A DNA stretch of 64,000 nucleotides, from the NCBI RefSeq assembly GCF_009650095.1, contig NZ_CP045915.1, forward strand, positions 2,480,001 through 2,544,000. The letters are read 5' to 3'. The translations under genes and the position numbers were made by a program. The stretch comes from Gracilibacillus salitolerans. Its GTDB lineage: Bacteria; Bacillota; Bacilli; Bacillales; Amphibacillaceae. Positions 1 through 1,215 of this stretch are shown here, piece after piece; within the stretch, counting starts at the first letter, position 1, and every line of letters begins with the position of its first letter. Below the pieces are notes generated by a model, which was given only the letters and a program-made list of their open reading frames with translations, did not search any database and was not told where the DNA came from.

Positions 1-250
1 ATGTGGCTTCCGTTTTCGGGATTTCCAGTTCCCCGTCTTGTGGAAGTACTTCTATAGCTCGTGGTTTAGTTGGATCACGTCTGATATAGCCTTTCTTCTC
101 CAATCTGGCTAAATGACCGTGAACGGTTGAACTCGATGCTAAACCAACTGCTTCCCCAATCTCACGAACAGATGGCGGATATCCTTTTAGCTCTACTTGC
201 TCTTTAATATAAGCTAATATCTCCTCTTGTCGTTTTGATAGATTTGTCAT
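1..250 (-). CDS. lexA: LexA repressor (SOS regulator), C-terminus cut by window edge
   Basis: Reading leftwards from the ATG at 250, the sequence gives a LexA N-terminal domain. It starts [15 protein letters not shown], continues with [20 protein letters not shown] (winged-helix recognition region) and then [20 protein letters not shown]. Only about 83 residues lie in the window, so the autocleavage and Ser/Lys protease domain is off the edge. LexA represses SOS genes until RecA-ssDNA triggers its self-cleavage. The start is preceded by AAGGAG. The gene is divergent from the yneA-position ORF and shares an intergenic region with three LexA boxes, one of which overlaps its own -35, as expected for autorepression. 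Confidence 0.96.
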
Positions 251-286: not shown

Positions 287-315
287 AGTATAGCATAGCA
301 AGCTAATATTTACAA
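287..315 (-). promoter_or_regulatory. lexA promoter
   Basis: On the minus strand TTGTAA (315-310) is separated by 17 bases from TATACT (292-287). The -35 overlaps the first SOS box (313-326), which fits LexA autoregulation. Confidence 0.7.
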
Positions 316-326
316 ACATTCGTTCG
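313..326. promoter_or_regulatory. SOS (LexA) box 1
   Basis: CAAACATTCGTTCG matches the Gram-positive LexA consensus CGAAC-N4-GTTCG with one mismatch in the left arm. It overlaps the lexA -35 element. Confidence 0.8.
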
Positions 327-336
327 AGAAAAACTA

Positions 337-364
337 TTGACATGAACATTTGTTCGTGTATAAT
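337..364 (+). promoter_or_regulatory. SOS promoter of the yneA-position gene and yneB
   Basis: TTGACA (337-342) and TATAAT (359-364) are 16 bases apart, a consensus sigma-A promoter. The spacer is almost exactly filled by SOS box 2, so bound LexA would block RNA polymerase directly. Confidence 0.85.
343..356. promoter_or_regulatory. SOS (LexA) box 2
   Basis: TGAACATTTGTTCG matches the CGAAC-N4-GTTCG consensus with one mismatch and sits between the -35 and -10 of the rightward promoter. Confidence 0.88.
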
Positions 365-371
365 AAAGATG

Positions 372-385
372 CGAACAAAAGTTCT
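372..385. promoter_or_regulatory. SOS (LexA) box 3
   Basis: CGAACAAAAGTTCT matches the LexA consensus except for the last base. It lies just downstream of the -10 of the rightward promoter and upstream of the ribosome site of the 31-aa ORF. Confidence 0.8.
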
Positions 386-400
386 GTGGAGGGATTTATA

Positions 401-496
401 ATGTTAAAAAATATTTCTAAAGTTGACATCTTCTATTTGGTTGCTTTTATACTAGCTATTGTCTTTTTTTATTTTTCAGCAGTAACTAGTCTATAG
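401..496 (+). CDS. 31-aa SOS-controlled single-pass membrane peptide at the yneA position
   Basis: A short ORF preceded by a good ribosome site (GGAGGG, 7 bases before ATG) encodes 31 residues: a short polar start (MLKNISKVD) and one hydrophobic segment (about residues 10-28). It lies directly behind an SOS promoter and two LexA boxes and 17 bases before yneB. In B. subtilis this slot holds yneA, an SOS-induced division inhibitor with an N-terminal membrane segment and a LysM domain (about 105 aa). Here the membrane segment is present but no LysM-coding sequence follows before yneB. It may be a minimal division inhibitor, a truncated yneA, or a distinct membrane microprotein. Promoter, ribosome site and ORF are seen; the role is inferred. 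Confidence 0.65.
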   Translation: MLKNISKVDIFYLVAFILAIVFFYFSAVTSL

Positions 497-501
497 AATA
501 A

Positions 502-1176
<675 letters not shown>

Positions 1177-1185
1177 AATGAAGAT

Positions 1186-1215
1186 AGAGTATACTATTCG
1201 TGTATACTCTTTTTT
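1186..1215 (+). terminator. Terminator after yneB
   Basis: Perfect 9-bp stem AGAGTATAC / GTATACTCT with a 7-base loop, followed by a T run. It separates yneB from ynzC. Confidence 0.85.

Follow-up and report, generated by a model that had tools for sequence, protein, structure and literature searches.

SOS division inhibitors and the lexA-yneB locus of Gracilibacillus

One of the closest described systems is YneA of Bacillus subtilis (NCBIfam equivalog NF010723), which is encoded in the slot between lexA and yneB behind LexA boxes and joins an N-terminal single transmembrane (TM) segment to a LysM domain. According to a 2026 paper (PMC13396833), this TM segment is both required and enough for localisation at midcell and binds TM7 of FtsW, toxicity is almost lost with the substitutions K5A, E6A, F10A, V11A and F14A, and FtsW P206L confers resistance to YneA. 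The same paper (PMC13396833) reports that YneA trimmed to its TM segment localises without blocking division and that the block occurs only with LysM, and it calls the way in which YneA stops FtsW unresolved. SosA of Staphylococcus aureus, an SOS division inhibitor encoded next to lexA, is LysM-less; it is 77 aa long and its extracellular C-terminus is required for activity (PMC6851548). SidA of Caulobacter crescentus, 29 aa long, is induced by the SOS response, resides in the inner membrane and inhibits division via FtsW (PMC4211646).

The window analysed here is a 64,000-nt stretch of the Gracilibacillus salitolerans genome (5.09 Mb, single contig), whose closest named kin in a tree of LexA and YneB are Gracilibacillus orientalis, G. 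lacisalsi and G. suaedae. Its first 1210 nt contain the following features.

1..250, minus strand: 5' part of lexA, divergent from the peptide gene; start codon at 250, gene extending beyond the window
314..325, unstranded: LexA-box-like site AAACATTCGTTC, a third box with one mismatch
337..364, plus strand: sigma-70-type promoter TTGACA-16-TATAAT, consensus match 12/12
344..355, unstranded: perfect LexA box GAACATTTGTTC, inside the promoter spacer
373..384, unstranded: perfect LexA box GAACAAAAGTTC, directly downstream of the promoter
388..393, plus strand: ribosome-binding site GGAGGG, read off the sequence; Shine-Dalgarno matches precede the ORF in relatives too
401..496, plus strand: ORF of 31 codons for a TM-only YneA-type peptide, MLKNISKVDIFYLVAFILAIVFFYFSAVTSL, between lexA and yneB
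514..1176, plus strand: yneB, second gene of the unit, beginning 17 nt past the peptide stop
1186..1210, plus strand: terminator-like hairpin with a T run after it (three such sites in 200-1700, versus 0.4 in shuffles)

We take the ORF at 514..1176 to be yneB, resolvase-like, its name and kind following the B. subtilis gene order. The peptide shares with YneA the slot, the LexA boxes in the promoter and the N-terminal single TM segment, but YneA has a LysM domain whereas the peptide has none and almost nothing past the membrane. Likened by description to SosA, it differs in ending at the membrane. The likeness to SidA lies in a length of about 29 aa, a single TM segment and SOS-type control, all of which the peptide has; the SidA host belongs to another phylum, and the gene neighbours of SidA differ from those of the peptide.

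The first-pass annotation had described a 31-codon ORF at 401-496 (+) with intact promoter, SOS boxes and ribosome site, and the sequence bears it out in each respect. Promoter-like sites number 7 in 200-1700 against 6.8 in shuffles, and 337-364 alone among them reaches 12/12. Perfect boxes of the form GAACN4GTTC occur in the 64-kb window just at 344-355 and 373-384. Since 18 of 100 shuffles of the window also contain two or more, the bare count is unremarkable, and it is the placement of the boxes that stands out. Across lexA-yneB gaps with a short ORF (n=50: the window, 48 loci of named relatives and L074, whose 35-aa version is classed with the short forms for the tree and this box count but not elsewhere), every gap holds a perfect box, with a mean of 1.48 versus 0.001 in mononucleotide shuffles. 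Judged by its sequence, the 31-codon ORF is a real gene and SOS-regulated.

Conservation, selection and distribution of the peptide

The loci of named relatives were pulled by yneB; out of 105, the 80 with the most similar YneB were used, a sample that leans to close kin. All 80 have the lexA N-terminus upstream of yneB (LexA, read from L001, is a protein of 206 aa). An ORF of 30-31 aa with a Shine-Dalgarno match lies in the gap in the window and in 48 of the 80, spanning 14 genera, and its stop is at the same place in all of these. The distance from stop to yneB in the named loci is 13-45 nt, the exceptions being L064, where the two overlap, and L073, with 256 nt; there is therefore no room for a LysM domain at this short distance. 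In L073, Lentibacillus salicampi, the peptide is intact although it lies so far before yneB (gap before yneB, about 3001).

The peptide is a single hydrophobic segment, with a 19-residue hydropathy above 1.6 in 54/54 short peptides, as expected of a single N-terminal TM segment. It stops at residue 31, seven residues past Y24, and the extracellular LysM domain is absent, which agrees with the earlier description of an ORF ending after one membrane segment. D9, F16 and Y24 are invariant in the 49 peptides and in all 54 once five more Gracilibacillus sequences are added; K7 (46/49), Y12 (44/49) and F22 (47/49) are nearly so. By column counts, K, R, D and E are absent past residue 9 in 49/49. The conserved positions do not cluster significantly on one face of a helix (permutation p 0.19). 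The tested peptides match no Pfam model and none of the NCBIfam families, including NF010723, whose curated cut-off is not reached. Because of this lack of matches, and because the ORF is short for gene finders, the checkpoint of this clade may be unannotated.

The comparison of synonymous and non-synonymous changes that the first-pass annotation had proposed gives a clear result. Purifying selection on the 31 codons is strong: a codon model on the LexA+YneB tree with 49 sequences yields omega 0.078 (2dlnL 543 against omega 1), with 1.47 and 6.1 in the shifted frames, and the 12 Gracilibacillus sequences by themselves yield 0.091 (2dlnL 114), with 1.1 and 8.4 in the shifted frames. That annotation had left two readings side by side, a minimal SOS peptide or a decayed yneA whose regulation survives for yneB. 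Relative to Bacillus the LysM domain is indeed missing, as decay or an assembly error would have it, but the selection on the codons in both datasets removes that reading. The same ORF length in the window and in 48 of the 80 named loci also stands against it, as do the gaps of only 135-160 nt in five of the seven named loci that have no ORF. We therefore rejected decay and sequencing error, to which we attach almost no probability. A full-length yneA hidden behind a frameshift is not found in relatives either, given the shared stop and the short ORF in 36/36 opened order-level loci. What stands is the minimal peptide, in agreement with its slot, regulation, mutual exclusion with LysM YneA and TM likeness to some YneAs.

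A leader peptide or translational coupler for yneB, which would not be a functional protein, would fit the mere 17 nt between the peptide stop and yneB and the lack of a terminator-like site between them. However, selection works on amino acids, homologous peptides without neighbouring lexA or yneB retain the motif, and L. salicampi keeps the peptide despite its 256 nt; we consider this explanation very improbable.

Profile A1, built from the 49 peptides, was run against 299 genomes of the order and matched at the locus in 37 (E 2.4e-7 or better). In 36 of 36 loci opened, lexA and yneB flank an ORF of 27-34 aa; these are not independent of the named loci, as they include the genome of the window and some genomes of that set, to which the 37th (G005) also belongs. 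Within the family of the window, A1 matches (E 0.001 or better) occur in 136 of 159 species, including 17/17 Gracilibacillus, although not every locus was opened. LysM YneA is above the cut-off in 201 of the 299 order genomes, and the 37 with the peptide at the locus have no strong LysM-YneA match: their best E is 1.3e-12, and 1.0e-7 in the genome of the window, which we infer to be below the 60-bit cut-off because 83.6 bits correspond to 3e-23 in the same listing. Compared at the sequence level, the peptide is conserved across its family and sister families, far past this genome.

The LexA+YneB tree has 81 rows, of which 50 are short, 22 carry LysM, 2 have a 71-aa form with a tail and 7 have no ORF. 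The four slot states need 4 changes on this tree versus 27.9 when shuffled. The short state needs 2 changes, Salimicrobium being weakly placed, and a group of six from Amphibacillus and Halolactibacillus without an ORF is nested among the short rows. Two changes are compatible with a single origin of the short form.

Relationship to YneA and LysM-less forms in other families

The link between the peptide and YneA was traced through TM segments, in pairwise comparisons partly picked by eye and some of them after a likeness had been noticed. The window peptide resembles the TM segments of two LysM YneAs of family f10, in G071 (z 5.7, 0/2000 shuffles as high) and G025 (z 3.8, 9/2000). Its profile aligns by hhalign with the 71-aa LysM-less forms of Halalkalibacter type (94%, E 1e-7) and with the LysM YneAs of family f28 (76%, E 2.3e-5), and just weakly with the f10 profile (25%, E 7.8e-4). 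No likeness to the peptide was found with a single profile of the 22 named LysM YneAs (hhalign 2.4%) or with B. sonorensis YneA (z 0.2-0.8), nor does the TM segment of B. haynesii YneA resemble the f10 bridge (z 0.1 and -0.1). Homology of the TM segments is thus plausible for f10 and f28 from pair scores and hhalign, weak by the f10 profile and undetectable for the Bacillus type, with some of the pairs chosen post hoc. The pattern K-x4-[FY][VLI]-x2-F, whose residues are spaced like K5, F10, V11 and F14, was counted in 43/54 short peptides as a raw number and is also seen in the LysM YneAs of G071 and G033; it occurs in only 2/22 named LysM YneAs, where the choice of starts matters. The acid is shifted by one position in this register (E6 in B. 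subtilis YneA, D9 in the peptide). Slot, SOS regulation, mutual exclusion and TM likeness to some YneAs support the view that the peptide is a TM-only, LysM-less relative of YneA.

Twenty order genomes chosen for having no A1 match and, by E-values, no YneA were opened at the gap; one exception, G044 of f28, carries a full LysM YneA. The five genomes of family f21 encode slot proteins of 59-61 aa without LysM, whose TM segment is similar to the one in Lederbergia LysM YneA (z 8.4 and 9.5 in the two tried, 0/1000 shuffles as high), a likeness that indicates a separate LysM loss. Family f34 has a 72-aa LysM-less form, G200 a diverged 35-aa form, and f42 a separate 34-aa TM-only form similar to the 71-aa protein of Halalkalibacter (z 12). 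The slot proteins of Halalkalibacter and Halalkalibacterium (71 aa), f21 and f34 share with the peptide the slot, the retained TM segment and the lack of LysM, but they keep a tail and the peptide has none. Loss of LysM thus apparently took place on more than one occasion. The LysM-less slot proteins of other families are found at L163, L165, L175-L178, L105, L106 and L164, with a TM segment plus tail of 59-72 aa or, in f42, the TM-only form.

At seven f11 loci, three f22 loci and G214, a filter for at least 24 codons and a Shine-Dalgarno match retained no convincing candidate; G260 has a 24-aa ORF running into yneB. In all, no convincing slot peptide was seen at L081, L085, L095, L097, L098, L102, L109, L166-L174, L179 and L181, where gaps are often 130-190 nt and 323-394 nt in three. 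These empty slots belong to Amphibacillus, Halolactibacillus, Gottfriedia, families f11 and f22, and G214, groups that may be without an SOS division peptide at this locus.

A large clade lacks LysM while its helix is still under strong selection, and other families are LysM-less with or without a tail. A conserved segment of 30 residues in the yneA slot suggests that the part thought to block division is dispensable.

Proposed action on FtsW and copies in mobile elements

By analogy with the 29-aa SidA, the peptide is most likely an SOS division inhibitor that acts by its helix on FtsW. DNA damage would lead to cleavage of LexA, and the peptide would be made together with YneB and insert into the membrane N-in/C-out. 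Its helix would then bind the divisome, the most likely point of contact being TM7 in FtsW, the site bound by the TM segment of B. subtilis YneA, and would by itself delay septal peptidoglycan synthesis as SidA does, skipping the LysM step required in B. subtilis. FtsW binding would thus have been kept and inhibition freed from the need for LysM. On balance we favour, with some reserve, the view that the peptide is a TM-only SOS product of the YneA lineage whose helix alone, on the divisome and FtsW, delays septal synthesis. If the peptide does inhibit division, a helix of 30 residues suffices to switch off a SEDS polymerase, which would make it a useful tool and lead.

The failure of TM-only B. 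subtilis YneA to block division is a point against inhibition by the helix alone. Since that segment still binds FtsW, the peptide could also bind FtsW or the divisome without inhibiting by itself, marking or slowing the divisome while another factor, a separate LysM protein or YneB, imposes the block. The genome of the window does contain ten weaker LysM-type matches to the YneA model, but no partner candidate is known, and we regard such a division of labour as unlikely.

FtsW was compared between 13 short-peptide rows (L213 and L250-L261) and L262; the FtsW of B. haynesii reproduces the L196/V204/P206 numbering. All 13 lack seven residues at the TM7 end, aligned as 205-211 including P206, although the placement of the gap is uncertain; a proline stands beside it in 3/13 short-peptide rows and in 0/7 Gracilibacillus rows. 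As P206L gives resistance to YneA in B. subtilis, the known FtsW site is altered in carriers of the short peptide. The gap may reflect co-adaptation or shared ancestry, and it is also a ground for doubt about action at this FtsW site. The loss maps where YneA-resistance mutations lie in B. subtilis, and a few LysM carriers share it. The genome of the window also has a tandem extra pair of SEDS (FtsW/RodA-type) genes at G000:C1:4544399-4546636, in addition to the gene taken as FtsW (2216126) and the one that likely encodes SpoVE (2250122).

A1 also matches outside the locus. We fetched the 16 such matches listed (L233-L248), at least five further second matches being counted in the family search. 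Fifteen copies were checked, one of the 16 being a near copy of another, with one to three larger neighbours each. In 14 of the 15 an integrase, RecT, replication, anti-repressor or other phage-type gene lies within 5 kb, L234 being the weakest case (an HTH gene and a transposase); L236 has none among the neighbours checked within that distance. Read from the nearest start, the copies are about 25-39 aa long and keep the motif, L240 and L242 being without a clear start, and the two set against the host peptide resemble it closely (z 9-14). A perfect LexA box within 1 kb is absent in 16/16.

Copies beside mobile-element genes would suit a toxic peptide, and the size, LexA-type boxes and single hydrophobic segment of the host form agree with an SOS membrane-active peptide of the TisB kind, which would depolarise the membrane or slow growth and leave the divisome alone. 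TisB is amphipathic, unlike these peptides with their lack of K, R, D and E past residue 9. Moreover, the peptide occupies the yneA slot and is similar to the TM segments of some YneAs, and Rfam gives no notable family at 1-2000, where the one hit is a chance-level plant microRNA match and no credible antisense-RNA antitoxin appears, though an undescribed antisense RNA would escape this search. We judge a TisB-like action rather improbable.

Under the favoured divisome reading, a broader picture can be offered tentatively and with less than even confidence: a large Bacillota clade could use, as its host SOS checkpoint, a stand-alone inhibitor helix of FtsW type and some 30 residues that is also encoded in the early regions of prophages and integrative elements of this clade, LysM would be dispensable in nature, and mobile elements would halt host division on their own schedule with the same minimal peptide. 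The copies away from the locus sit, to judge by the phage-type genes near 14 of the 15 checked, in early regions that are prophage-like or of integrative elements, and those of L237, L239 and L245 come after a gene matching phrog_6048, a family of unknown function.
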